Assembly: GCA_006218055.1 (NCBI GenBank)
Contig: VBWD01000018.1
Span: 1 to 64,000 of the forward strand
DNA length: 64,000 nt
Direction of reading: 5' to 3'
Source: Gallionellaceae bacterium
GTDB taxonomy: Bacteria; Pseudomonadota; Gammaproteobacteria; Burkholderiales; Gallionellaceae
Both the position numbers and the translations under genes were made by a program. How positions within the stretch are numbered: position 1 is the stretch's first letter; each line of letters opens with the position of its first letter. Shown here in pieces: positions 10,871 to 26,500 of the stretch. Below the pieces are notes generated by a model, which was given only the letters and a program-made list of their open reading frames with translations, searched no databases and had not been told where the DNA came from.

Positions 10871-12913
10871 TCAGAAATCGACGTTCGCCTTCACCCACAG
10901 ATTGCGGCCAACTTCATTGACGCGCGTGGTCTGTGTGAACCCGCTCACCATCGCTCCGGCGCGGCTGATGTGTTCCGCATACATCTTGTTGAGCAGGTTA
11001 TCCACACCGGCAGTGAGTTGCGCTGCCTTGTTGATGCGCCATCCGCCGTTCAAAGACAACACAGCAAAACCTTTCGAGGCGGCGATATCTTGCCCCGCGA
11101 TGTTGCCTTGGTTCACCGCTACGCGGTCTTGTGCTGCGACACCTCGCACCAATCCGCCGAACGACCACATCTTGTTGTCGTAATTCAGCCCCATACGCGC
11201 CTCCAGCGGCGACATCTGCCCCAACGCTGTGCCATCCGTATCGTTGTTGCCATGCACGTAGGCCAAGCTACCATCGACCTTGATGTACTCGGTCAGCTGG
11301 TACACGACGCCAGCCTCGGCGCCATAGGTCGACGCATCCACATTGCGAGTCACCTTCACTAAATCCATACCTTTGGCCACATTCGATTGGATCAGATTAA
11401 AGTCGGTGATCTTGCTGTAGAACGCCGAGACCGAAGCAGACAATGCTCCGCCACGGTGATTCATTCCTACATCTAACTGAGTCGTCTTTTCTGGCTTAGT
11501 GTTGAAAGCACTTGCTGTGGTCATGCTCTCGCTACTGAATAACTCCCAGTAGTCCGGTGCGCGCGAGGTTTGGCCCAGACCAACGTAGGCGGTATATCCC
11601 TCGTTCACATCCAACTCATAGCGAGCAAAACCGCTAGTCAATGTCTCTTTGCGCGTCTTGTTTGCGGTCGGATTCATCACTGAAGTCATCATGCTGCGCA
11701 TCACCATCGAACGCGCATCTGTCGCTTGCCAACTGTCTGCACGCAAACCAACGATGACACGGCTGGCATCCGAGACATCTTGGTGCAACTCACCAAACAC
11801 GCCGACATTTTTGAATTCAGCATCCTTCACGCGCGGGAGCAAAGTGTAATCACCCGGATTCATCATGCCAGCTGGGTAACCCGGCGCTGCTCCACTGCGA
11901 CCAGTATGAACGTTGGATTGCGTATCCACTCCCAACTTGAGCTGACTCACCTCAGCCAGATTCAACGTTCCAGCAAAATGTCCTCCCGTCGTCTTCCGAT
12001 CAGGATTCATCGCCGCCATGGCAGATGCCGGATTGCCACCCGCACGCAGGCTGTAACTATCCATCACGTGGTCGATGTAGTTGTAATACACCTGCGCTTC
12101 GATGCTATCCAACACACCGCCCATGTGCTGCTTATCGAGCTTCAGACCGACGTTGTCACGTGCGAATTTCGAGCCATCCACGCTACGGTCCGCATAAGCA
12201 GCCTTGCCATCACTCTTGGCGACAGTCAGCTCAAGGCGCGTATCGTCGCTTGGCGTCCAGCCCATCGCCGCATTCGCGCTCCAACGGTTGTACGCAGAGT
12301 GTACTGCGACGCCATTGCCATCTTTGTAGTCGTCCGCTTGCGAACGCGTCATCCCTGCGTACAAATAAGCTGAGTCCGAACTTACTTTCGCATTCACTGC
12401 CTCGTCATTGCGACCGAAGCTCCCCGCCATCAGGGATACACTACCCGAAAGCCCCGCCTCATCACGCTTAGTACTTCGTTCAAACAACACCGTACCTGCC
12501 GAATTACCCGCACCGTGAATGACGGTCTGCGGGCCCTTCAACACAGTGATGCTGTCGTAAGAGGAGGGGAACACATACGCCGTCGGCGGATCCATACGGC
12601 CGCCGCAACCACCCAATATCTGCTCGCCATCCAACAAGATGTTCAAACGCGAACCCGCCATGCCGCGCAACACCGGATCACCATCCGTGCCGCCTTTGCG
12701 GATGACGGAGAAACCCGGGATGGTCTTCAGATAATCCGCGCCGTCGTGCGCAGGAACCGGTTGGCGCGGCTTCTTAGGGTCTGTCTTCACGGTCAGCGGC
12801 TGTGTACTTTGCGGCGCAGTCACCACCACTTCGTCCATCGTCGTCGTTTCGGCAGCATAGGTAGCGCCAGTCATCGCCATCAGTACAGCGGCTACGATCA
12901 TCTTTTGTTTCAT
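10871..12913 (-). CDS. TonB-dependent copper receptor (OprC-like)
   Basis: A 680-aa outer-membrane receptor: signal peptide (ends TYAAE), TonB box (TMDEVVVTAP), plug domain (SRLNILLDGEQILGGCGGRM, DSITVLKGPQTVIHGAGN) and a 22-strand barrel ending in Phe (WVKANVDF). GGCGGRMDPPTAYVFP and the Met-rich stretches (PAGMMNPGDY, RSMVMRSMMTSVMN) match the OprC/NosA copper receptor group. Methionine richness fits Cu binding. Start preceded by AGGAGAAGAGC, nearly the same leader as the PCuAC gene. It is divergent from regB, and a RegA-type box lies between them. Confidence 0.88.
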   Translation of the reverse strand: MKQKMIVAAVLMAMTGATYAAETTTMDEVVVTAPQSTQPLTVKTDPKKPRQPVPAHDGADYLKTIPGFSVIRKGGTDGDPVLRGMAGSRLNILLDGEQILGGCGGRMDPPTAYVFPSSYDSITVLKGPQTVIHGAGNSAGTVLFERSTKRDEAGLSGSVSLMAGSFGRNDEAVNAKVSSDSAYLYAGMTRSQADDYKDGNGVAVHSAYNRWSANAAMGWTPSDDTRLELTVAKSDGKAAYADRSVDGSKFARDNVGLKLDKQHMGGVLDSIEAQVYYNYIDHVMDSYSLRAGGNPASAMAAMNPDRKTTGGHFAGTLNLAEVSQLKLGVDTQSNVHTGRSGAAPGYPAGMMNPGDYTLLPRVKDAEFKNVGVFGELHQDVSDASRVIVGLRADSWQATDARSMVMRSMMTSVMNPTANKTRKETLTSGFARYELDVNEGYTAYVGLGQTSRAPDYWELFSSESMTTASAFNTKPEKTTQLDVGMNHRGGALSASVSAFYSKITDFNLIQSNVAKGMDLVKVTRNVDASTYGAEAGVVYQLTEYIKVDGSLAYVHGNNDTDGTALGQMSPLEARMGLNYDNKMWSFGGLVRGVAAQDRVAVNQGNIAGQDIAASKGFAVLSLNGGWRINKAAQLTAGVDNLLNKMYAEHISRAGAMVSGFTQTTRVNEVGRNLWVKANVDF

Positions 12914-12971
12914 GCTCTTCTCCTGTGAAAATTTCGACGCGGATTGTATGGATTTTTTTCACAACGACTCT

Positions 12972-12986
12972 GCGGCATTTTGTCGC
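12972..12986. promoter_or_regulatory. Match to RegA/PrrA binding consensus
   Basis: GCGGCATTTTGTCGC fits the consensus I recall for RegA, GNGRCRTTNNGNCGC, at every fixed position. It lies 59 bases from the copper receptor start and 39 from the regB start, in the only intergenic region shared by both. A TAGAAT (13011-13016) just before regB may be its -10. Confidence 0.6.
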
Positions 12987-13024
12987 ACCCCAATAACGGC
13001 GGGCTTCCGGTAGAATCCGTCGCC

Positions 13025-14467
13025 ATGAACTCCTCCCTACTTTCCACCCAGACGGGTCACTCTCATCTGCGCCGCTTGTTCATGCTGCGCAACTGGGCGA
13101 TCCTGGCGCAGTTCGCCACCCTGATCCTAGTGCATCGATTCCTGAGTACGGATTTCGCTTGGACGCCGATGGTCGGCACGGTGGTGTTCTTGGTGTTGGC
13201 GAACCTGCTCACGTGGTGGCGCTTGTCGCTTGACTATCCAGTGAGCAACCTAGAGTTGTTCTTGCAGTTGTGTCTGGATGTGAATGCGCTGACGGTGCTG
13301 CTGTATTTCGGCGGCGGCTCGACCAACCCTTTCGTCTCGCTCTATCTGTTGCCACTGGTACTCGCCGCCGCCACCTTGCCACGTCGATACACATGGGGCA
13401 TGGCCGCATTGACCGTCGCGTGTTACAGCTTGTTGATGGTGTGGTACGTGCCGCTTCCGACAGGGGATGCACATGCTGCTCATTCAGGTCATACAACAAC
13501 CGTCATCGCCGCGTCCGCTGTAACCGCCGCCCCCGTGCACGACCACACTGCGATGCAGATGGATCACAGCCAACATCAGATGCATCAGCCCGAAGTCACG
13601 CCGTCCGACTACTGCCGCACCGAACCAGAATCTGCACCCGCTAGCGCCAGCGCCGACACTTCCCCACTGGGTGATGCGTTCAATGCTCACGTGCTCGGCA
13701 TGTGGTTGGGCTTCGTCATCAGCGCGACAGTGATCGCCTATTTCGCGGTAGAGATGGCGGCTGCGGTTCGTTTGCGTGAGGCGCAACTCACCCAAGTACG
13801 CGAAGAAACTTTGCGTAACGAACGTATCGTTTCGTTGGGTACGTTGGCAGCGAGTGCAGCACACGAACTCGGTACGCCGCTCTCTACCATGTCGGTGGTG
13901 ATCGGTGAGATGCAGAACGAATGTGAATCGCCAGACCAAAAAGAAAGCCTCACCCTGCTCGACGACCAAGTGCGCAACTGCAAACGCATCCTCAACACCT
14001 TGGTGAACCATGCACAAGCGACACCGGAAGTGATGAGTATCGAAGGTTTTTTGTTGGCGGTATTGGACGAATGGCAATTGTTGCGCCCCACCGTGCATTA
14101 CCACTATCAAGTCGGCGGCCCCCAACCTGCGCCGCAACTACGCCCCTACCCCGCCTTGCGGGCAGCCCTGCTCAATCTATTGAACAACGCCGCCGATGCT
14201 TCCTCGGAGGGTATGCATATCCAGTTGCATTGGGATGACAAACACATCGTGCTGGAGATACAAGACCAGGGGCCGGGTCTCACCGTCGAGGCCGCCTCGC
14301 GTGCGGGTTCGGCTTTCTTCACCACCAAGGAGGAAGGGCGCGGATTGGGCTTGTTCCTCGCCAATGCCACGTTAGAGCGACTAGGCGGCAATGTGAGATT
14401 GTTCAACCGCGACGGCGGCGGTGCGACGACCGAAGTGACGCTACCCCTGCAAGGACTTCGTGCATGA
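13025..14467 (+). CDS. regB: RegB/PrrB-type sensor kinase with His/Met-rich loop
   Basis: A 480-aa membrane histidine kinase that senses redox or electron flow and phosphorylates RegA. Six membrane helices span about residues 22-250. The quinone/redox motif is FGGGSTNPF (95-103). The H-box is AAHELGTPLST (His280), the N-box NLLNNAADAS, and the G-boxes DQGPGL and GRGLGLFLA. The Cys conserved near the H-box in Rhodobacter RegB is absent. Residues 148-187 form a loop with eight His and three Met (HDHTAMQMDHSQHQMH) that I do not know from standard RegB. Start ATG at 13025; the frame extends upstream without a better start. Overlaps regA by ATGA. Confidence 0.9.
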   Translation: MNSSLLSTQTGHSHLRRLFMLRNWAILAQFATLILVHRFLSTDFAWTPMVGTVVFLVLANLLTWWRLSLDYPVSNLELFLQLCLDVNALTVLLYFGGGSTNPFVSLYLLPLVLAAATLPRRYTWGMAALTVACYSLLMVWYVPLPTGDAHAAHSGHTTTVIAASAVTAAPVHDHTAMQMDHSQHQMHQPEVTPSDYCRTEPESAPASASADTSPLGDAFNAHVLGMWLGFVISATVIAYFAVEMAAAVRLREAQLTQVREETLRNERIVSLGTLAASAAHELGTPLSTMSVVIGEMQNECESPDQKESLTLLDDQVRNCKRILNTLVNHAQATPEVMSIEGFLLAVLDEWQLLRPTVHYHYQVGGPQPAPQLRPYPALRAALLNLLNNAADASSEGMHIQLHWDDKHIVLEIQDQGPGLTVEAASRAGSAFFTTKEEGRGLGLFLANATLERLGGNVRLFNRDGGGATTEVTLPLQGLRA

Positions 14468-15003
14468 GCCAGATCAACAACGACACCCCGACACTACTGT
14501 TAGTGGATGACGATGCCACCTTCCGCAGCGTATTAGCCCGCGCTTTGGAAAAACGCGGCTTCAGCGTGTCCACGGCCGACAGCGTCGAGACAGCATTGCC
14601 GCTGGCACAAGCCAACCCACCCGAGTTCGCCGTCATCGACCTGAAGATGCACGGTGCCTCCGGCTTGGTGCTGGTACAGGCCCTGCATGAACTCGACCCC
14701 GCCACCCGCATCGTCATGCTCACCGGCTACGCCAGCATCGCGACTGCGGTGGAAGCCATCAAACTGGGTGCGACGCAATATCTGTCCAAACCCGCCAACG
14801 CCGACGAGATCGTTACTGCCTTCGGCCATAACGCCAACCCCGATGTGCCAGTAGAAGCCCAGCCCGCCACCGTAGACAAACTGGAATGGGAACACATCAA
14901 CCGCGTATTGCACGAGCAGCAAGACAACATCTCCTCCACTGCGCGCGTCCTCAATATGCACCGCCGCACCTTGCAGCGAAAATTGGCAAAACGTCCCTTT
15001 TAA
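14464..15003 (+). CDS. regA: RegA/PrrA-type response regulator
   Basis: A 179-aa two-domain regulator. The receiver has LLLVDDDATF (acidic pocket), VIDLKMHGASGL (phospho-Asp), MLTGYASIATA and YLSKPANADE. A linker leads to a Fis-type helix-turn-helix at the C-terminus (EWEHINRVLHEQQDNISSTARVLNMHRRTLQRKLAK). This compact form is typical of RegA/ActR/PrrA, which controls respiration, carbon and electron-sink genes. Cotranscribed with regB through an ATGA overlap. Confidence 0.92.
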   Translation: MSQINNDTPTLLLVDDDATFRSVLARALEKRGFSVSTADSVETALPLAQANPPEFAVIDLKMHGASGLVLVQALHELDPATRIVMLTGYASIATAVEAIKLGATQYLSKPANADEIVTAFGHNANPDVPVEAQPATVDKLEWEHINRVLHEQQDNISSTARVLNMHRRTLQRKLAKRPF

Positions 15004-15084
15004 GTAGAAAAATATCCGCTAAAGGATTCTGGCTTCCTGCCGAAATACCCCTTGTAAGCTAACAAAACCAACGAGGGGAAAGCC

Positions 15085-15948
15085 ATGAAGCCGTCTATCG
15101 ACCTGAAAAAGGCCATCCAAAATTTGGATAGCCTGCCTGCCATGCCCGTCATCGCGCAGAAGATATTGACCTTATCTCTGGACACCGATGAAGGTGAGTT
15201 GCAACTGCTGAAACTCATCGAGAAAGACCCGCAGATGTCTGCGCGCATCATCGGGCTTTCCAACACGCCACTGTTTGGCGCCTCGAAACAAGTCACCTCC
15301 GTCCAAGATGCCTCCATGTTGCTGGGCCTCACGCGGGTGAAGTCGGTCGCCGTCGGTATCGCAGTGATGTCCTCCATCTCCAAACAGTCCACTGGCCTAT
15401 TGGATATCCAACATCTCTGGCTGCACAGCTTGGGCGTCGCGCTGGGGATGCGAGTGATCTCGCGTGCCATGCCTAGCCGTACCCGTCCGCTTGAGGATGA
15501 GATATTTCTTGCCGGATTGCTGCATGACATCGGCTACATGGTACTGAACCATCTGGATATGCAACTCAGTGATCGCCTGCATCAGAAGTTAGCAGCCGAA
15601 CCGGATCGCCCCGTTTCCGAGGTGGAAGCCGAAGTGATCGAGGTCAGTCACGCCACACTGGGGGCAGAGTTGGCACGCCATTGGGACTTGCCAGATCGCA
15701 TCATCGCAGTGTTGCGTTATCACCACACACCCGATGTCGAGGAAGCCGCCGCAGGACAGCCCCTGATCGCGCTCATCAACTTGGCCGAGAAACTATTGCC
15801 CAGTTTCGGCATCGCTGAAGTGGTGGACACCAACATCAGCGATGAAGATTGGCTCGCGCTCGGCATCGAACCTGAACGTGCCGACGAACTATCCGCCGCC
15901 GTGCATGAACAGGCGGAACAGGCTAAACAACTTGCCAGCAACTTTTAG
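15085..15948 (+). CDS. HDOD domain protein, copy 1
   Basis: A 287-aa single-domain HDOD protein (LPAMPVIAQKILTL, LLKLIEKDPQMSARIIGLSN, FLAGLLHDIGYMVLNHL, YHHTPDVEEA). HDOD proteins are HD-related signalling proteins, often without catalytic activity, in chemotaxis, c-di-GMP or stress circuits. Here the LLHDIG part keeps an HD pair. A GAGGGGAAAGCC leader precedes the ATG. The next gene, 2 bases later, is a paralogue along its whole length, so this is a tandem duplication. Confidence 0.85.
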   Translation: MKPSIDLKKAIQNLDSLPAMPVIAQKILTLSLDTDEGELQLLKLIEKDPQMSARIIGLSNTPLFGASKQVTSVQDASMLLGLTRVKSVAVGIAVMSSISKQSTGLLDIQHLWLHSLGVALGMRVISRAMPSRTRPLEDEIFLAGLLHDIGYMVLNHLDMQLSDRLHQKLAAEPDRPVSEVEAEVIEVSHATLGAELARHWDLPDRIIAVLRYHHTPDVEEAAAGQPLIALINLAEKLLPSFGIAEVVDTNISDEDWLALGIEPERADELSAAVHEQAEQAKQLASNF

Positions 15949-15950
15949 CC

Positions 15951-16811
15951 ATGACCACGGCGGACGATCTCAGGCTTGCTGTACGCGATCTGAACAACTT
16001 GCCAGCGATGCCGGTCATCGCGCACAAGTTGCTTGCATTGAAACTGGAGACGGATGAAGGCGAACGGCAGATGATGTTGCTCATCGAGCAAGACCCTCTC
16101 ATCTCCGCCAAGATCATCGGCTTGGCCAACTCTCCCCTGATTGGTGCGTCACGCAAGATAACCACGGTGAAGGAAGCCTCTCTGCTCCTTGGGCTGAAAA
16201 AGGTGAAGTCTGTCGCCACCGGCATTGCGATGATGACGTTGGTGAGCAAACCCATCGGTCGCTTCGATCCGCAAGAGTTCTGGCTGCACAACATGGCCGT
16301 AGCTTTTGCCATGCTGCCCGTGGTGCGCGCAATGCCACCCGAGCTACGTCCTGCAGACGACCTGATCTTCCTCACCGGCATGTTGCACGACATCGGATTC
16401 CTCGCCTTGGCCCATTTGAACGACCAACTCAGCGATGACCTTCTCACCCGCATGCTCATCGAACCTGAACGCCTAGTGACGTCGATAGAAGATGAATTGA
16501 TGGGCATATCGCATGCCGAACTGGGTGCCGAATTCGCACAGCACTGGGGACTGCCTAGCGAGATCGTTGCCGTGCTGCACTACCACCACACACCCGATGC
16601 AGCAGGTGCTGATGAGGGTTTCCCGCTGGCACGCATCATCAATGTCACCGAGAAGCTGCTCAGTTCGACCGGACTGCATGAGTTCGTTGGTTATCAAGTG
16701 AGCGACGAGGAATGGGCGGCGCTGGGCATCGACCCAGATGATGCGGAAGAGATCACATCACAAGCTGCCGAACAGGCCGATCAAGCATTGCAGTTCGCCG
16801 CGACTTTCTAA
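15951..16811 (+). CDS. HDOD domain protein, copy 2
   Basis: A 286-aa paralogue of the gene before it, matching from LNNLPAMPVIAHKLLALKLE through TGMLHDIGFLALAHLNDQL to YHHTPDAAGADEG and a similar C-terminus (AAEQADQALQFAATF). The spacing of 2 bases and the lack of a separate Shine-Dalgarno suggest coupled translation. Divergence between the copies is substantial, so the duplication is not recent. The signal it relays is unknown. Confidence 0.85.
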   Translation: MTTADDLRLAVRDLNNLPAMPVIAHKLLALKLETDEGERQMMLLIEQDPLISAKIIGLANSPLIGASRKITTVKEASLLLGLKKVKSVATGIAMMTLVSKPIGRFDPQEFWLHNMAVAFAMLPVVRAMPPELRPADDLIFLTGMLHDIGFLALAHLNDQLSDDLLTRMLIEPERLVTSIEDELMGISHAELGAEFAQHWGLPSEIVAVLHYHHTPDAAGADEGFPLARIINVTEKLLSSTGLHEFVGYQVSDEEWAALGIDPDDAEEITSQAAEQADQALQFAATF

Positions 16812-16861
16812 TCTTCTTCACCACGACCACTGTTTTGTGCCGCCGACGTTAGGCACGCCTG

Positions 16862-16867
16862 TATAAT
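16862..16867 (+). promoter_or_regulatory. TATAAT -10 element before the carboxypeptidase gene
   Basis: A consensus TATAAT sits 28 bases before the ATG at 16896. The nearest -35-like TTGTGC (16835-16840) is 21 bases away, longer than usual, so only the -10 is convincing. Confidence 0.4.
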
Positions 16868-16895
16868 CGCGACAGTTGAAACCCTGCCTATCATC

Positions 16896-18026
16896 ATGAA
16901 ACTCGTCCTTCGCCTGCTACTTGTTCTGCCTTTCTTTTTCTCCTCTGCACACGCCTACCCAACCGATCCCGCACTCGCCGCCAAGCATTACGCGCTCTAC
17001 GATTCCACTAGCCAGCAGATGCTGATCGAACACGATGCGAACACGCGCATCGCACCCGGCTCACTCACCAAGTTGATGACTGCCTATGTCGTGTTCGATG
17101 CCTTGAAACAGAACAAGATATCGCTGCGCCAATCCCTGGACCCGACCGCCTATGCCCTGCGTCTGCAGAACGAAGAGCCGCGCATGTTCTTGGAAGTAGG
17201 CAAGGAAGTGCGCGTCGAAGAACTGTTGCGCGGACTCATCGTGCAGTCCGCCAACGATGCGGCACGCGTACTGACCGAAGCCGTTGCCAATCACGAAGTC
17301 GCCTTTGCCGATCTGATGAACAAGCAAGCGCAACACTTAGGCATGCGCAATACCCGCTTTGCCAACGCCACGGGTGTGCCGGAAGAGCAGCATTACAGCA
17401 ACGCACACGACATCGCTTTGCTTGCTGCTGCACTACTGCGTGATTTCCCCGAGTTCTATCCGCTGTACGCCCTGCGTGAATACAAATACAACAACATCAA
17501 CCAGTTCAACCGCAACCGTCTGTTGTGGGTAGACCCCTATGTGGATGGCATGCAGACTGCGCATGACGAAGCCGTCGGATTCTCCTTGGTCGCTTCCTCC
17601 ACGCGCGACAACCGCCGCCTCATCTCCGTCGTGTTGGGCACGGAGAAAGAGAACCTGCGCATTTCGGAGAGCCAGCACCTGCTCAACCTCGGCTTCAAAG
17701 AATTCGAAGCGGTGATGCTGTACCGCAAAGAACAACCTGTCAGTGAATTACGTTTGTGGAAAGGGACGGAGCATCAAGTCGAGGTCGGCTTCCGCGACGA
17801 TCGTTACATCACAGTCCCGCTCGGCCAACGTGACCTGTTACGCGCCAAGCTGGAAACCAAACAACCGCTCATTGCACCGGTGAATGCCGGCCAAGCTATC
17901 GGCACACTGCACTTGCTGTTGAACAACGAACCCTATCTCGACCTGCCGGTGGTCGTGCTGGAAAGCGTGCCCTTGGCAAATGTGTTCTCGCGCGGCGTGG
18001 ATGCGATACGATTGTTCTTCGAATAA
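16896..18026 (+). CDS. D-alanyl-D-alanine carboxypeptidase-like protein, altered KTG motif
   Basis: A 376-aa PBP5/6-type (peptidase S11) protein. Signal peptide is residues 1-20. The SXXK motif is SLTK (56-59). The SXN motif is SAN (118-120, usually SGN). The third motif, normally KTG in DGLKTGHT, reads DGMQTAHDEAVGF, so Lys and Gly are replaced by Gln and Ala (220-222). The C-terminal PBP5-C domain is present, and the tail (NVFSRGVDAIRLFFE) looks like the amphipathic membrane anchor. The family trims the fifth residue of the peptidoglycan stem; loss of KTG suggests reduced or changed activity. First gene of an operon with dat, DUF493 and lipB. Confidence 0.85.
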   Translation: MKLVLRLLLVLPFFFSSAHAYPTDPALAAKHYALYDSTSQQMLIEHDANTRIAPGSLTKLMTAYVVFDALKQNKISLRQSLDPTAYALRLQNEEPRMFLEVGKEVRVEELLRGLIVQSANDAARVLTEAVANHEVAFADLMNKQAQHLGMRNTRFANATGVPEEQHYSNAHDIALLAAALLRDFPEFYPLYALREYKYNNINQFNRNRLLWVDPYVDGMQTAHDEAVGFSLVASSTRDNRRLISVVLGTEKENLRISESQHLLNLGFKEFEAVMLYRKEQPVSELRLWKGTEHQVEVGFRDDRYITVPLGQRDLLRAKLETKQPLIAPVNAGQAIGTLHLLLNNEPYLDLPVVVLESVPLANVFSRGVDAIRLFFE

Positions 18027-18036
18027 GGAGAAGGCG

Positions 18037-18891
18037 ATGACGATCTACCTGAACGGCTCTTTCTTGCCCATCGAAGAAGCTAAAATACCGGTGCTGGATC
18101 GCGGCTTCATCTTCGGCGACGGTGTGTACGAAGTCATCCCCGTCTATTCACGTCGTGCCTTCCGTCTGTCGGAACATCTGCAACGTCTGCAACACAGTCT
18201 TAACGGCATCCAACTGAAGAATCCGCACAGCGAGAGCGAGTGGACGAACATCCTCAACGAACTCATCCAGCGCAACGTATGCGAAGACCAATATCTCTAC
18301 TTGCACATCACGCGCGGTGTCGCCAAGCGCGACCACGCCTTCCCCAATCCGCCTGTGCCACCAACCGTGTTCGTGATGAGCAATCCGCTCACCACACCGA
18401 GCGCCGAACTCCTGAAGAGCGGCATCGCCTGCATCACCGTCACGGACAACCGTTGGTTGCGTTGCGACATCAAAGCTATCGCACTATTGCCGAATGTGTT
18501 GCTCCGCCAAGCGGCAGTGGCGGCAGGGTGTGCCGAGGCCATCCTCATCCGCGATGACGAGTTCATGACCGAAGGCGCGGCCAGCAACATCTTCGTGGTG
18601 AAGAACGGCACACTCCTCGCTCCACCGAAAGACAACCTCATGTTGCCCGGCATCACCTATGACGTGATATTGGAGATCGCCGCCGCGAACGGCATCCCAC
18701 ACGAGGTGCGCAAAGTGATGAAAGAGGAAGTGTTCGGTGCGGACGAACTGCTACTCACCTCCTCCACCAAAGAAGTGATGGCGATCACCACACTGGATGG
18801 CAAGCCCGTGGGCAACGGCAAACCCGGCGCGATGTTCGCCAAGCTGCACCCGCTCTACCAAACTTTCAAACAGGAAGTGATGCGCAAATGA
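18037..18891 (+). CDS. dat: D-amino acid aminotransferase (class IV PLP)
   Basis: A 284-aa fold type IV aminotransferase from the ATG at 18037 (Shine-Dalgarno AAGGAG). Signatures: VLDRGFIFGDGVYEVIPVY, the PLP lysine in CDIKAIALLPNVL, and EGAASNIFVVKNG plus LPGITYDVILEIA. The family interconverts D-Ala and D-Glu with their oxo acids; branched-chain and 4-amino-4-deoxychorismate enzymes share the fold. The D-amino acid assignment rests on the conserved neighbourhood with a DD-carboxypeptidase and lipB. The following DUF493 gene overlaps its stop by ATGA. Confidence 0.82.
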   Translation: MTIYLNGSFLPIEEAKIPVLDRGFIFGDGVYEVIPVYSRRAFRLSEHLQRLQHSLNGIQLKNPHSESEWTNILNELIQRNVCEDQYLYLHITRGVAKRDHAFPNPPVPPTVFVMSNPLTTPSAELLKSGIACITVTDNRWLRCDIKAIALLPNVLLRQAAVAAGCAEAILIRDDEFMTEGAASNIFVVKNGTLLAPPKDNLMLPGITYDVILEIAAANGIPHEVRKVMKEEVFGADELLLTSSTKEVMAITTLDGKPVGNGKPGAMFAKLHPLYQTFKQEVMRK

Positions 18892-19157
18892 CCGTGACCG
18901 AAGACTCCCTCATCGAATACCCCTGCGACTTCCCTATCAAGGTGTTCGGCTTAGCGCATCCCGATTTTGCAAGTGCCATCGCCATCGTCGTTCAAAAACA
19001 TTCCTCCGGGTTCGACGCGAACAGCATCGAGATGCGCAACAGCACGGGCGCCAAATACATCAGCCTCACCTGTACGGTTCACGTCACCTCACGTGAACAG
19101 CTCGACGACCTCTATCGAGACCTAAGCTCTCACCCCATGGTGAAGATGGTGCTATGA
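18888..19157 (+). CDS. DUF493 (YbeD-like) protein
   Basis: An 89-aa protein of the YbeD/DUF493 family, a small ferredoxin-like fold with possible ACT-like ligand binding ([14 protein letters not shown] near the start, [20 protein letters not shown] later). The family is regularly placed immediately before lipB, as here, and its role is unknown. It overlaps dat and lipB by ATGA on both sides. Confidence 0.9.
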
Positions 19158-19816
19158 CCTTCCATCCGCCCATCCACATCCGCGCCCTAGGCCTCGTCGA
19201 ATACGAACCGACTTGGCGCGACATGCAGCGCTTCACCATCGAGCGCACAGCAGATACGACGGATGAGATATGGCTGCTACAACATCCGCCCGTCTTCACT
19301 CAAGGCCAAGCGGGCCTGCCAGAACATCTGCTACGCACCTCACACATCCCCGTGGTGAAGATCGATCGCGGCGGACAGATCACCTATCACGGCCCCGGCC
19401 AGATCGTGGCTTACCTGCTACTCGACCTGCGCCGTTGGAAGATCAACGTGCGCGAGTTGGTACGCCTGATGGAACAGGCTGTCGTCGACCTGCTTGCGGA
19501 ATACGGCGTGAAGTCTGCCGGACGCGAAGATGCACCCGGCGTGTATGTAGGTGATGCCAAGATCGCCGCGTTAGGACTGCGCATAAAGAAAGGTTGCTGC
19601 TATCACGGCCTATCGCTCAACGTGGACATGGACCTCAACCCCTTCGCCCACATCAACCCCTGTGGTTACCAAGGACTGCGCGTCACGCAATGTGTGGAAC
19701 AGGGCATCATCGTGCCGATGGAGGAATTACAAGCAGAGCTCACTCAGAATCTGGTGCATGGCTTGCAGCGACACCTTGCGATTCAGTCCGCCCCCCACTC
19801 CTCCCTTACGGAATAG
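19154..19816 (+). CDS. lipB: Octanoyl-[acyl-carrier protein] transferase
   Basis: Transfers octanoyl from ACP to lipoyl domains, the first step of lipoate synthesis. It has 220 aa. Signatures: [20 protein letters not shown], the catalytic Lys in [12 protein letters not shown] and the Cys in [12 protein letters not shown]. lipA, often its neighbour, does not follow; instead there is a 339-base stretch with a small antisense ORF and then a radical SAM gene of another family. Confidence 0.95.
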
Positions 19817-19851
19817 ACAGATTCCAAACGGCCATAGGGCTGAAAATGACC

Positions 19852-19989
19852 CTATTGCAGATTTCGGTCAGAGCGCGACCTGTCGCCCAGCAACAATTTC
19901 GCTTCCTCCCACACCGCGTTCGTCAGGAACATGAAGAACAAAGTGAGTAACACCACACAGGCAAACAACATGATGAATGGATATTTCAT
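19852..19989 (-). CDS. Small single-pass membrane protein (45 aa)
   Basis: A 45-aa ORF. Residues 4-24 (PFIMLFACVVLLTLFFMFLT) form one hydrophobic helix, followed by a charged tail (VWEEAKLLLGDRSRSDRNLQ). A good Shine-Dalgarno, GGGAGG, lies 7 bases before the ATG. It is the only gene candidate in the stretch 19817-20155. The remaining bases, 19990-20155, show only a short dyad. I do not recognise a family. Confidence 0.55.
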   Translation of the reverse strand: MKYPFIMLFACVVLLTLFFMFLTNAVWEEAKLLLGDRSRSDRNLQ

Positions 19990-20049
19990 GATCGCCTCCC
20001 CACTACACCAGCACACACATCGCGCTGTCATTTAGTTTTTCGGCAACTA

Positions 20050-20063
20050 TCAAGATTTCTTGA
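20050..20063. promoter_or_regulatory. Perfect 14-base dyad upstream of the 45-aa ORF
   Basis: TCAAGATTTCTTGA is a 6-bp perfect dyad with a 2-base centre, 61 bases upstream of the small membrane protein start. It resembles a repressor operator in form, but its position relative to a promoter is unknown. Confidence 0.3.
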
Positions 20064-20155
20064 ACGGAATACTACGCAACATCTCAAATACGTATCGCTG
20101 GAATAGCGGAAAAATCCCCCCGCATCTCACACTGTTCATCCGCAAGAGCCTCGCA

Positions 20156-21190
20156 CTAAAACAAGCTCCCCTGCCCACTCAGATTCGGCCTGATGAACTT
20201 CGACGTATCGAGTGACACACGCTCGCCTTGATTCAAACCCAAGCGATCACACGCCAGCTTGAAACGTTTCACCAACAATTCCGCGAACATGCCGTTGCCA
20301 CGGAAACGCGAGCCGAATTCCGAGTCGTTCTCCTTGCCGCCGCGCATCTCGCGCAATCGGCTCATCACATGCTCCGCCTTCAGCGGGTAGTGCACATTGA
20401 GCCAATCTTTGAACAAGTCTTTCAACTCATACGGCAGACGCAACAAGGTGTAGCCCGCCGTGCGCGCACCGTGTTCATATGCGGCTTGCAACACGTTCTC
20501 CAGTTCGGCATCGGTGAGGAAAGGGATGACCGGCGCGACCATCACCCCGCACGGCACACCCGCCTCGTTCAGCACACGGATGGTGCGCAACCTGCGCTGC
20601 GGTGATGCGGCGCGCGGTTCCAGCTTGCGTGCCACATCGGCATCCAGCGTCGTGACCGTGATGAACACCTGCACCAAGTCGTCGCGTGCCATCTGCGTGA
20701 GCAAGTCGAGGTCGCGCTCGATGAGCGCAGACTTGGTCACGATGGAGAACGGATGCTTGCACTCCGCCAGCACTTCCAATATCTGCCGCGTGATCTTCCA
20801 ATCGCGTTCGATAGGTTGGTAATGATCGGTGTTCGCCCCCAACGCGATGGGTAAGCAACGGTAGGAAGGTTTCGCCAACTCCGCACGCAACAACTGCGCC
20901 GCCTCCGGCTTGGCGAACAACTTGGATTCGAAATCCAATCCCGGCGAAAGATTCATATAGGCATGCGAGGGCCGCGCGTAACAATAGATGCAACCATGCT
21001 CGCAACCGCGATAGGCATTCAGCGAATAATCGAATGGCAGGTCCAGCGAATCGTGACGCACTATGATGCTCTTTGCACTCTCCACCGTCACCGTGGTCTT
21101 GAAGGGTGGTAGCGCTTCATCTGCCGCGCCCCAACCATCGTCCACCCGCTCACGCGCCACCGCACGGCCCTTATTAACTTCATGCTTCAC
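20156..21190 (-). CDS. PA0069-family radical SAM protein
   Basis: A 344-aa radical SAM enzyme. The cluster motif is CEHGCIYC (Cx3Cx2C) preceded by SLNAYRG; further on come LGANTDHYQPIER and SIVTKSALIERDLDLL. It matches the PA0069/Rv2578c group related to spore photoproduct lyase; the reaction is not established. The N-terminus (residues 1-40) is polar. A tail with ENDSEFGSRFRGNGMFAELL is typical. It reads opposite to lipB and the DUF4442 gene. Confidence 0.85.
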   Translation of the reverse strand: MKHEVNKGRAVARERVDDGWGAADEALPPFKTTVTVESAKSIIVRHDSLDLPFDYSLNAYRGCEHGCIYCYARPSHAYMNLSPGLDFESKLFAKPEAAQLLRAELAKPSYRCLPIALGANTDHYQPIERDWKITRQILEVLAECKHPFSIVTKSALIERDLDLLTQMARDDLVQVFITVTTLDADVARKLEPRAASPQRRLRTIRVLNEAGVPCGVMVAPVIPFLTDAELENVLQAAYEHGARTAGYTLLRLPYELKDLFKDWLNVHYPLKAEHVMSRLREMRGGKENDSEFGSRFRGNGMFAELLVKRFKLACDRLGLNQGERVSLDTSKFIRPNLSGQGSLF

Positions 21191-21310
21191 GCTGGCTGTC
21201 CTGAATGTGTTGCGTGCATTTTAGGGAGTGTTTAGAGTGAACACCACGCTTAAAACGGAGCTGGAACCGACCTACTTGATTCTGTTAAGAAAGAAGCAGG
21301 AAAGGCACAG

Positions 21311-21811
21311 ATGAACGATATGAACGGGCTACTAAGACTGTTAAGCGACAGGGCTAGGGAGACCCTCTCTCTACGCTGGTTCGGTCTCACCCAGATCCCC
21401 GTGCTGTTCTACTTCCGCGTATCAGTGGCAGAGATATCGAAAGAGCGCATGGTCGTGCGCATCCCCTTGCGGCGCAGGACGAAGAATCACCTCGGCTCCA
21501 TGTACTTCGGCGCGCTCTGCGCAGGGGCAGACTGCGCAGCCGGCGCATTCGCCATGCACCTCATCAAACGACAACCAACGCACATCTCACTCGTGTTCAA
21601 AGATTTCAGTGCAGAGTTTCTCAAGCGTGCGGAAGGTGATGTGGATTTTTGTTGCAATCAAGGACAAGAGATCGCCAAACTTGTCGCACAAGCCGCCGCT
21701 TCGGATGAACGCGTCGAACGGCAGTTGGACGTGATCGCGACCGTACCGTCGTTGAGCGACGAACCGGTGGCCAGATTCAAGCTGACGCTGTCGTTAAAGA
21801 GGCGGGGATGA
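21311..21811 (+). CDS. DUF4442 hotdog-fold (thioesterase-like) protein
   Basis: A 166-aa protein resembling PaaI/DUF4442 hotdog thioesterases: RIPLRRRTKNHLGSMYFGALCAGADCAAG corresponds to the hot-dog helix region. Followed by LVFKDFSAEFLKRAEGDVDF. Putative acyl-CoA or acyl-ACP thioesterase; no substrate can be named. It stands alone with 120 bases upstream and 125 downstream, both intergenic. Confidence 0.75.
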   Translation: MNDMNGLLRLLSDRARETLSLRWFGLTQIPVLFYFRVSVAEISKERMVVRIPLRRRTKNHLGSMYFGALCAGADCAAGAFAMHLIKRQPTHISLVFKDFSAEFLKRAEGDVDFCCNQGQEIAKLVAQAAASDERVERQLDVIATVPSLSDEPVARFKLTLSLKRRG

Positions 21812-21936
21812 CCCAGCCTACTCGGGCTAAATTTACGCCCAAAATCATCCGGCAGACGCTTAATTGAGGCAGAATGCTCCCGCATCAAAAACTATAAAAA
21901 TCCAGAGAAACTTTTCTGGAAGCACTTGGAGGCGGC

Positions 21937-23493
21937 ATGAACAAAGAAGAGAAATTGCTAGCCATCAGAAAGCTGGTATATGAGCTCGCGATTGCAAGCA
22001 ACATCAATAACGACCTGGATACATTGCTTGCGCACTTGTTCTCTATGCTGGAGAATGTGCGTGATATCCCTCTTGAACAACGCGGGGCAATCATGTTGCT
22101 CAATCCGCGCGGCCGCTATTTCCAAGTAGCCCAATTCGGCATTTCACCCGCTTGGGAAAATCCCATGCAATGGAATTCCGCTTCATTCAAAAATCGGGAA
22201 ATATCAAGAAGCTGCCTTACTGAAGATATCGCATGCGGGGACGAAGCGATCGGGGATGGTCATCTGTCTCGCATGGTGCTCTTGCCAGTACATGCAGGAA
22301 GCAACGGCCTTGGCTACATCGCTCTCTTCACCGCGCCGAATTATGCGATGGATGCGGTGTGCACTGATTTCTTTAATGATCTTTCCAGGGCGTTATCAGG
22401 CCTGGTACAGCGTGCTCTGATCAATGAGACATTATCTGTTCGCGAACTCGAACTTGAAGAAGCGCGCGCGGAGGCTATCCGTAGCTTAGGTATCGCATCT
22501 GAATATCGTGACAACGAAACTGGCTGGCACATCATGCGCATGACGAATTTTGCGCTCGCCATCGGCAAGGCGATGCGCCTGCCGGAAGAGCAGCGTGATT
22601 TGCTCGCCGTAGCCGCGCCAATGCATGATGTTGGCAAGATCGGCATCGCCGATTCGGTTTTGCTCAAACCTGGCAAGCTAACTCCTGCAGAGTTCGAGGT
22701 CATGAAGGGACACGCGAGTATCGGTGCCAAAATTCTGGAAGGAAAAGATTCACTCATCGTGGCAGCTCGGGATATCGCCAACTCGCATCACGAACGCTGG
22801 GATGGAGATGGCTATCCAGAAGGGCTAGCAGGAGAGGCCATCCCTTTGCTCGCACGCATCTGCGCGGTCGCTGACGTGTTCGACGCGCTCACATCAACGC
22901 GCCCATACAAGGAACCATGGACGGTTGATGCCGCCTATCAATGGGTCATCTCCGAATCGGGCAAACATTTCGACCCTGTCATTGTCCGTGCATTCAGTGA
23001 GGCGATGCCGGAGATCTTACGCATCCGTGAGCTCTACCGCGATGACATCATCGATCCGAAACGGGTGCTGACCTTACCCCCTATTCGGCGTCGAGAGAAT
23101 GTCTGGATTCCTTGGGATGAAAGCCTAAGTATCGGCATCGACATCATTGATGAGCATCATCGATACCTATTCGACTTGGTCAATGACCTTTATGCGGTAG
23201 TCATCAACAAGCGAGGCACTCGGCAGGTGGCGCGCTTGATAAAGTCATTGGATGCTTATGCCAAGGTACATTTCCGCGCTGAAGAACAGATGATGGATCA
23301 CTATGCTTATGTCGGGATGGATCGTCAATTACACCAGCACCACGCATTCGAAGAGAAGATTGCCGAGTTCTATGAAGAACTACATGTGAACCCGTTGGTC
23401 GCGCAATTCGACGTTCTCTCCTACCTGAAAGATTGGCTGATCCACCATATCCGCGTTGAGGATGCGCAACTAGCCACTCTCGCGAAAAACTAG
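21937..23493 (+). CDS. GAF-like / HD-GYP / bacteriohemerythrin fusion
   Basis: A 518-aa three-part protein. Residues ~20-160 look like a GAF sensor. The HD-GYP phosphodiesterase domain spans ~175-365, with HD at 230-231 (APMHDVGKIGI) and the GYP motif in HHERWDGDGYPEGL (292-294), consistent with c-di-GMP hydrolysis. A hemerythrin domain follows (390-515: WDESLSIGIDIIDEHHRYLF, HFRAEEQMMDHY, HQHHAFEEK, LIHHIRVEDAQL), giving the usual His/Glu/Asp di-iron ligand set. The combination suggests oxygen- or redox-controlled c-di-GMP turnover. A GGAGG Shine-Dalgarno precedes the start. Confidence 0.88.
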   Translation: MNKEEKLLAIRKLVYELAIASNINNDLDTLLAHLFSMLENVRDIPLEQRGAIMLLNPRGRYFQVAQFGISPAWENPMQWNSASFKNREISRSCLTEDIACGDEAIGDGHLSRMVLLPVHAGSNGLGYIALFTAPNYAMDAVCTDFFNDLSRALSGLVQRALINETLSVRELELEEARAEAIRSLGIASEYRDNETGWHIMRMTNFALAIGKAMRLPEEQRDLLAVAAPMHDVGKIGIADSVLLKPGKLTPAEFEVMKGHASIGAKILEGKDSLIVAARDIANSHHERWDGDGYPEGLAGEAIPLLARICAVADVFDALTSTRPYKEPWTVDAAYQWVISESGKHFDPVIVRAFSEAMPEILRIRELYRDDIIDPKRVLTLPPIRRRENVWIPWDESLSIGIDIIDEHHRYLFDLVNDLYAVVINKRGTRQVARLIKSLDAYAKVHFRAEEQMMDHYAYVGMDRQLHQHHAFEEKIAEFYEELHVNPLVAQFDVLSYLKDWLIHHIRVEDAQLATLAKN

Positions 23494-23543
23494 CCCCCAT
23501 CTCCGGCGTCTGTTTTTGACCCCGATAGCCACTAGAGATTCAC

Positions 23544-26500
23544 CTACTCGACCACTCTCATTCTCGCATCTAAAAAAACTAAAGCACACCTTACGGTCTT
23601 GCCTGCATACACCGATTGCATCGCAGTTTGATATTCCCGCATCTGCAACTGGTAACGCGCCGCATCTTCGCTATCGCCTAGCTTGTAATCCAGCACCCAC
23701 ACTTCGTCGTCGAATTCCACCAGACGGTCGATACGTTTCAACTCACCCTTCGCATTGATGTAGGGCATCTCGTTGTGGGCGTTGCGGTGTTGCTGTGCGT
23801 CGAAGAAGCGCGAGAGATGGGGCGCGGTGAGGATGTGTTGGGCTTGTGGGTAGAGGGCGTCTAACTCTTGCTGAGAAATGGAAAGTCTTTGCTGAAGCGT
23901 CGCCCGCCCCCCCTCTCCCATAGAGTGAGGGGGGATCTCGGTGAGGTATTGCAACATTGAATGTAGCCAGACACCTCGCTGCTGTTGTGCGGTATTGCGG
24001 GTAGTACGTTTTCCTGTGGGTAGGATGGGTGGTATCGCAACTTTCTGTTCAGCACTTCGCTCAGTGTCGTGTGATGTGGCAGCGAGCTTGTTCAATGGAT
24101 TCGTCTGCTCACCTAGCACCGATGCGATACGTCCATACCAAGTTAGTTGCTTGGTTTCCTTCGCGCCTTGGTTGCCGCTGACGATGAGCGCTTGCTGTGC
24201 GCGGGTCATGGCGACGTAGAGTAGGTTCATCTCTTCGCGGGCTTGTTGGGCAGCGTCTAGTTCGAACAACGGCGCACGTTTCTTGCCGCGTGAGGCTTGG
24301 TCTGTGTGGAGGGAGAAGTGCAAAGGTCGTTCTTCGTGCGGCGACCAAGACAACAGAACGTCATTGCCATCACGGTTCTTCTTCTCTGCATTCGCATCCA
24401 ACAGCCAGACGATGGGCGCTTCCAATCCTTTCGATTCGTGCACGGTGTAGATGCGCACCGCATCGCCCGCTGTGCCGAGCTTGCCTTCGTCCGGCGCATC
24501 GTCGCTGCTGTCGCGCAATTCGCGCAACTCTTGCAGGAAGCGCGGCAGACTGGGGTAGCGTCCCGCATCCACACTCAAGGCGATCTCCATGAAGGCGTGC
24601 AGGTTGGCGGTGACTTTGGCGCGCATCTCGACAGGCAATACGGCGCTGTAACGCGCCAACACATCGCCTTCGAAATAGATGCGGTCGAGCAGGTCATGCA
24701 CAGGGAGTTTGTCCGCGAGGAAAAGCCAGCGGTTTAATAATTCGTAGGCGCGTTGTAGCGACGAGTGTTCCCCCACCCCAGCCCTCCCCCGTTGGGAGAG
24801 GGAGCTAGAAGCAAGGTGTTGCAGGCGTTGCCACCAAGAAGATTTAGGAATGAGGATTGAGGATTGAGTAAAACCATCCGCACCTTCCCCACACTCCACA
24901 CTCCTCGATCCTAAATCCTCAATCCTAAATCCTGATAGATGTATCAAGTCGGCATCACTGCAAGCGAAGATGGGCGTGCGCAGCACTTGTGCCAGCGCGA
25001 GGTCGGCGAAGGGCGTGATGAGGAACATCAGCAGTGCCTGTACGTCTTCCGCTTCCAAAGTATCGAGCAATCCTCCACGACGCGAGCTGATGAAGGGGAT
25101 GTGTTGGGCGCGCAGCGCTTCTTCGTACACGGCAAGGTGGGTGCGGCTGCGCACCAGCACCATGATGTCGCCATAGGTGGCGCGGCGTACTTTGCCTTCG
25201 TCGTTCACCGACCAATCGCTGACGATGGTTTTTATCTGGTCGGCGAATTGCACAGCTTCGAGGTGGCGCGCGCCTTCTTCGGTTTCTGCGCGTGGGGTGG
25301 TGAGCGGGTTGCGCAGGGTGAGTTCTTGAAAGTGTTCCCCCACCCCAACCCCTCCCCCAGTGGGAGAGGGGCTATGAGCGGCTTCGATTTCAAGTTCGGC
25401 GACTACAGCCAACGGCAGCACCAGCACATGGCCGGGCAGTTCCGTTTGATGCGTTTGATGTTCGACGAACTCGAAGCCGTCCGGCTGCTCGCGGAACACG
25501 GCGTTCACCGCATCCACCACCGGCTGGGAGTTGCGGCGCGTGAGGCTGTTGCCCAAGGTCGCAGCATTGAAATGTTCTTGCAGATATTCGCGTGCCACAC
25601 CGAACAGGCGCGCATCGGCACGGCGGAAACGGTAGATAGACTGCTTGGGGTCGCCCACGACGAACACGGTGGGTTGCGATTCCACCGCCACTGCCGCATC
25701 GAACCACGCGCGCAGGATCTGCCATTGCAGCGGATTGGTATCCTGGAATTCATCCAGCAACACATGACGATAGCGGCTATCGAGTTTGTACTGCATGGTC
25801 TCGGCGTGTTCGCTCTGTTGCAGCAGGTGACACAACTGCCATTCCAGATCGGAAAAATCCATCTGTTGCTTTTGTGATTTCAATGCTTGGTATCGATCTA
25901 GGAAAGCCACACCGCAATGCAGCACGGCTTCATTCAAACGATAGGCTTGTTGCTCTGCTTGTGTGTCGTGCACTTCTTGCAGACTATCGAACAGCGCATC
26001 GCGTGTGATGAGGAAGGCTTCGGCATCCTGCTTCTTGGTCGGCTTGAAACTGCGCGGCTCGCCTGCCTGTATGAACAGCAAAGGTTGCACGGCATCAAAA
26101 CGGGATCCTGCTTCAGCATCCGTCCATGCCCGCTCCAACTCGCTCGCTTTGCTTTGCTGCACCTCTGTGCCATTACTCGCCAGTTGCCGCACGAAAGCAA
26201 AGAACGCTTCTTCGTTGTTGCCGCACATTCCCCAATCAGCGACCGCATCGAACTCCATGTCCACAGCCAGATCGTTACGCAGATTTTCCAGAGCGAAAGA
26301 AAGTACATCCTTCCGACCCTGGGTGTACGCCCACCACTCGGCGCGTTTGCCTAAGAAGTTGAACAGCAGCTTGCGCGTGTTGAACAATCCGTATTCCTCA
26401 AACAGCCACTGCATGTGCTGTGCGTTCACACCCTCCGGCTGCTTGCGCATCTGCTCCAACAATTCTTCCCACGCTTCTTCCTGTTCGCTGCCTGCGCGTT

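Follow-up and report, generated by a model that had tools for sequence, protein, structure and literature searches.

A conserved PBP5-family protein with a dismantled active site, probably a membrane-tethered pseudo-DD-carboxypeptidase, in the Gallionella/Sideroxydans group

The dacA-type gene in the window (the whole stretch of 64,000 nucleotides analysed) is best read as encoding a conserved, membrane-tethered pseudo-DD-carboxypeptidase, and a role as a non-catalytic cell-wall protein is considered probable. PBP5 is the textbook DD-carboxypeptidase, and the effect of its loss on cell shape is still debated. A lineage in which the active site of PBP5 has been dismantled and the anchored protein appears to be under normal selection would be a clean natural experiment on a role independent of catalysis, with the sister genus supplying intact orthologues for comparison. 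It is also a warning for annotation pipelines, in which such genes get labelled carboxypeptidases. No description of an inactive PBP5 or of Gallionella carboxypeptidases was found in the open part of PubMed Central.

Identity, Fold and Operon of the Window Protein

The S11 domain, the PBP5_C domain and the PBP5 fold are all present in the window protein, which is encoded by an open frame of 376 aa (Table 1). The Pfam matches to Peptidase_S11 (213 bits) and PBP5_C (66 bits) are well above cut-off, 4k91 is the top phmmer match (E 2e-85), and the AF2 model (pLDDT 87.8, pTM 0.84) adopts a PBP5 fold with 4k91_B, the PBP5 of P. aeruginosa, as top Foldseek match (E 3e-39, TM 0.85/0.93). Alignment with E. 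coli DacA equates Ser56, Lys59, Ser118 and Asn120 with Ser44, Lys47, Ser110 and Asn112, respectively, and places Gln220-Thr221-Ala222 at Lys213-Thr214-Gly215 and Arg255 at Arg248 of E. coli PBP5. The initial annotation, which had reported QTA for KTG together with SLTK and SAN, was therefore exact; two separate codons are changed, without a frameshift. SAN is a regular form of the SxN motif and no anomaly by itself, active relatives having mostly SGN.

A lipoprotein-like nature, which had also been suggested, is not supported, since the signal peptide has an SPase-I-like AHA-Y end, the N-terminal region contains neither a Cys nor a lipobox, and an amphipathic helix is present at the C-terminus. 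The hydrophobic moment of this helix (LANVFSRGVDxIRLLFQ) is 0.60, compared with a shuffled mean of 0.28, and is reached by 1.1% of shuffles; sequence and model thus make it a likely inner-membrane anchor.

The gene order dacA-DAAT-DUF493-lipB, with a dacA-DAAT gap of ~10 bases, is conserved throughout the genus, in agreement with the earlier report of an operon with a D-amino acid aminotransferase, and is also found for most degenerate copies elsewhere. The E. coli locus reads dacA-ybeD-lipB, without the transaminase. Directly upstream in the window is a tandem pair of HDOD-domain genes (15085-15948 and 15951-16811, plus strand), and across related genomes the orientation of the HDOD neighbour varies by lineage, with the same strand in some and an inversion in others. 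Promoter and terminator scans at the locus gave signals not above those of shuffled sequence, and an Rfam scan of window positions 12000-24000 gave zero matches at the gathering threshold.

Table 1. Features of the dacA-type gene and its operon in the window.
Feature	Position	Strand	Evidence
dacA-type gene, predicted pseudo-DD-carboxypeptidase, PBP5 family	16896..18026	+	Pfam Peptidase_S11 + PBP5_C, Foldseek
Signal peptide, residues 1-20, ending in AHA before YP, without lipobox Cys	16896..16955	+	Sequence; low-pLDDT segment 1-20; predicted cleavage site
SLTK, SxxK motif, residues 56-59	17061..17072	+	Sequence, alignment
SAN, SxN motif, residues 118-120	17247..17255	+	Alignment
QTA at the place of KTG, residues 220-222, codons CAG ACT GCG	17553..17561	+	Sequence, alignment
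Arg255, equivalent of E. coli PBP5 Arg248, kept	17658..17660	+	Alignment
PBP5_C beta domain, about residues 262-352	17679..17951	+	Pfam, AF2 model
C-terminal amphipathic helix LANVFSRGVDAIRLFFE, likely inner-membrane anchor	17973..18023	+	AF2 helix 363-375; hydrophobic moment
Class IV aminotransferase, D-amino-acid transaminase-like (DAAT), next operon gene	18037..18891	+	
DUF493 (YbeD-like)	18888..19157	+	
lipB, lipoyl(octanoyl) transferase	19154..19816	+	

Loss of Catalytic Residues across the Genus

The window's genus, the iron-oxidising Gallionella/Sideroxydans group of the Gallionellaceae, was surveyed in 34 genomes, a data set dominated by MAGs; the named relatives found for the locus are MAGs of Sideroxydans and Gallionella. 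dacA is present in 31 of them, including all 21 genomes of at least 90% completeness; the remaining three are 62-89% complete. The genus orthologues group in a single clade (SH-aLRT 98). The KTG lysine is missing in all 30 genomes with a readable motif (QTA, QTS, ATG, AAS, STS, QAA and others), and 13 of the 29 readable members have His, Gln or Ala instead of the nucleophilic serine, a change that rules out S11 serine chemistry in them.

Clade B, the half of the genus that includes the window, shows QTA or QTS and a single QAA, with Gln at the Lys position in 16/16 members; the serine is kept in 14, and the other two have Ala instead. Clade A, the other half, has Ala or Ser at the Lys position (ATG, AAS, AAA, AAG, STS), and the nucleophilic serine is changed to His or Gln with the single exception of L025. 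The dacA copy of genome G029 is both Ser-less and Lys-less; that of G076 is intact. The sister genus g37 has intact KTG, SLTK and SGN, and KTG, the serine and SGN are likewise kept by most of the family. The presence of both Lys and Ser in 44/44 active family orthologues used for comparison is true by construction, since these orthologues were picked for intact motifs, and the compared sets are phylogenetically unequal. What is informative is the contrast between the window's genus, without a single intact copy, and the sister genus together with most of the family, which are filled by intact copies. From these motif patterns, the predicted absence of carboxypeptidase activity is well supported, as the initial annotation had proposed in calling the protein a possible pseudoenzyme: the case is strong for the Ser-less members, and inactivity is likely for the QTA members that keep the serine.

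Several loci deviate from these patterns. In L110 (G028:C14:19861-20981), dacA is divided between two overlapping frames around residues 83-100; this is a frameshift or an error of assembly in a single MAG, and its close relatives are intact. A genome of another genus (L056, G135:C109) contains an intact dacA and a degenerate one of the window-genus type; this second copy probably stems from a contaminating contig, the contamination of this genome being 5%. L104, L105 and L108 (g32, g39) combine an intact KTG with SxS (SAS/SGS) at the SxN position, possibly another route to an inactive PBP5.

Retention and Selective Constraint

Nei-Gojobori estimates for close pairs with dS of 0.2-1.2 give a median dN/dS of 0.20 in the genus vs. 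0.18 among active orthologues, the pairs not being independent. For the DacA/DAAT protein distance ratio, the genus gives 1.69 (IQR 1.43-2.56), compared with 1.84 (1.57-2.14) for active relatives, indicating that the whole protein is not relaxed in the genus. Mean pairwise identity, genus vs. active, is 0.71 vs. 0.69 for the catalytic domain and 0.65 vs. 0.65 for PBP5_C. Decay is local to the motifs: identity is lower in the genus at SxxK (0.93 in the active set, 0.80 in the genus) and KTG (0.83 and 0.59), but higher at SxN (0.89 and 0.97) and in the C-terminal anchor (0.75 and 0.82). The equivalents of Lys47, Ser110, Asn112, Asp175, Arg198 and Arg248 are nearly invariant, and in-frame stops are absent from full-length genus copies. 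These comparisons support the view that the putative pseudoenzyme is retained, with purifying selection about as strong as that on its active orthologues.

Other Wall-Trimming Enzymes

A protein of the S13 (PBP4/DacB) type scores above cut-off in 29 of the 34 genus genomes, one of these hits being perhaps a weak match to DacA itself. Many genus genomes also carry a protein of the P0002 type, a short S11 of 266 aa with intact SLTK, SAN and KTG; one gene of this short S11, at G033:C48:14216-14979, is broken across two frames. Displacement of DacA by the short S11 was rejected as a general cause, because it is absent from the near-complete genomes G004, G015, G020 and G024, in which DacA is predicted to be dead, and because many g36 genomes combine a short S11 with an intact DacA. 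G004 and G024 are single-contig, 99% genomes. The short intact S11 is thus common, yet neither necessary nor sufficient for DacA loss. Replacement by an S13 protein fails as a general cause in the near-complete G020, which lacks it, and replacement by VanY is countered by zero M15 VanY proteins in seven genomes tested. Within the S11, S13 and VanY search, G020 (99% complete) retains a PbpG-like S11 alone beside the presumably dead DacA. Near-complete genomes without the short S11, one of them also without S13, indicate that redundancy is not the general driver of loss. Pentapeptide-rich peptidoglycan is predicted for species like that of G020.

Parallel Decay Elsewhere in the Order

A scan with the back-translated motif [AV]DGxKTG over 399 genomes of the order found it in 314, and 47 motif-negative genomes were followed up. 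Some of these are actually intact, their IDGMKTG having been overlooked by the pattern (L165, L166). PBP5-type dacA is absent in f31/g45, f41/g55, f25/g105 and g141, and in part of f44, where only PbpG-like S11 matches are left; for f31/g45, f41/g55, f25/g105 and g141, the absence is seen in near-complete genomes. The gene can therefore be dispensable.

Degenerate copies are found in f37 (MTG/ETG/GTG/ATG), in f18/g71 and f2 (MTG and an altered SxN), in f18/g21 and f20 (every motif gone), in f19/g22 (KTG lost, other motifs altered) and in f44 (Ser to Ala, or KAG). Parsimony on a 120-row tree requires at least nine changes for the Lys loss and at least four for the Ser loss, on what is a quick tree with masked motif columns and many weak forks, from which the most degenerate copies were excluded. 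Beside the degenerate operon copy (L163, L164, L167, L169), family f37 (genus g51) has another PBP5 that is intact and lies away from the operon (L193-L196), which leaves the operon copy there free to change; this split is an independent case. For the order searched (Betaproteobacteria), it is tentatively proposed that the operon PBP5 has many times independently become a membrane-bound non-enzymatic cell-wall protein, which would reveal an ancestral structural or partner-binding role that is separate from trimming and able to outlive catalysis.

Proposed Role and Alternative Explanations

The KTG lysine would have been lost once at the base of the genus, and the serine would have gone as well in one of its halves and, separately, within a branch of the other. 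The protein would be exported and held at the inner membrane via its C-terminal amphipathic helix, and the remaining cleft (the Lys of SxxK, SxN and Arg248) and/or the protein surfaces could bind pentapeptide peptidoglycan or partners in cell-wall synthesis, in a non-catalytic role as scaffold, decoy or sensor. Where DD-trimming proper takes place, it would be performed by other enzymes, of the S13 (PBP4/DacB) or short S11 type. The data suggest a repurposing of PBP5 as a non-enzymatic cell-wall protein, for which we infer a peptide-binding or scaffold role with putative ligands or partners. The kept Lys47, SxN and Arg248 equivalents may also be structural instead of ligand-binding.

As the window protein keeps Ser, Lys and SxN, it could show slow acylation or penicillin binding. 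The Ser-keeping QTA members, including that of the window, might accordingly retain an acylation that is slow or directed at another ligand, with Gln for Lys, and serve as a weak hydrolase or as a sensor that binds penicillin or pentapeptide. The Ser and Lys of SLTK, SAN and Arg248 are intact in 14 of the 16 clade-B orthologues, the Gln fixed in all 16 resembles a maintained new motif, and a K213R variant of E. coli PBP5, in which carboxypeptidase activity is abolished, is cited as still binding penicillin (Malhotra and Nicholas 1992, cited in PMC9430164). This explanation is nevertheless considered unlikely, because proteins of the same operon and fold lack the serine in clade A (all but one) and in two clade-B members, the Gly of KTG is also lost in clade B, and few parts of the genus proteins are less conserved than the KTG block. 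The initial annotation had considered the use of another residue for catalysis; as an S11 hydrolase this is contradicted in the Ser-less relatives and conceivable only for Ser-keeping members; of its other proposals, the pseudoenzyme and operon assignments are supported and the lipoprotein-like character is not.

Still less probable is a decaying relic, i.e., a dacA made redundant after another DD-carboxypeptidase took over, drifting to loss and held in place by polar effects in the operon. Repeated independent loss in the order, the several families without dacA, the position of the most degenerate copies on long branches (L125, L126) and the S13 and/or short intact S11 in most genus genomes are in line with such a drift, but the genus shows no overall relaxation, its full-length copies are free of in-frame stops, all near-complete genomes have the gene, and the anchor and SxN are better conserved than in active relatives. 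In addition, two near-complete single-contig genomes have no short S11, and one near-complete genome has neither short S11 nor S13. A sequencing or binning artefact, for which only the draft state of the window genome (71% complete) could be invoked, has a negligible probability: the survey found the KTG lysine in none of the 30 genus genomes, contrary to the notion that orthologues would all have KTG and the change be a sequencing error, and the identical Lys loss occurs in 30 separate assemblies, including the single-contig near-complete G004, G024 and G029, with two codons altered and the frame unbroken. A conserved, membrane-tethered pseudo-DD-carboxypeptidase thus remains the preferred reading.

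Comparison with Known Systems

The window protein shares with E. coli DacA and P. aeruginosa PBP5 (4k91) the fold including PBP5_C, the signal peptide, SxxK, SxN, Arg248, the C-terminal amphipathic helix and the synteny with ybeD-lipB. It differs in having QTA where these have KTG; in many orthologues the nucleophile is missing, and the family-defining activity is predicted to be absent. The short S11 P0002, a paralogue or xenologue in the same cells, has the S11 domain in common with it, but is too short for PBP5_C, lies outside the operon and combines intact motifs with a patchy presence.

In E. coli, the S44G exchange abolishes both penicillin binding and activity of PBP5, and PBP5(S44G) neither complements the shape defect nor localises to midcell, being spread evenly over the envelope (PMC2909392); no useful role is therefore known for a dead PBP5 in E. 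coli. Active E. coli PBP5 without its anchor still cleaves pentapeptides, yet fails to restore shape (PMC2909392). PBP7 (PbpG) of E. coli is likewise an S11 protein with a C-terminal helix, and its midcell localisation is directed by this helix and not by its catalytic residues or activity (PMC11586513), although natural PBP7 is an active endopeptidase and the window protein is predicted from its motifs to be inactive. Together, the literature on E. coli PBP5 and PBP7 mutants makes an anchored non-catalytic S11 protein plausible.
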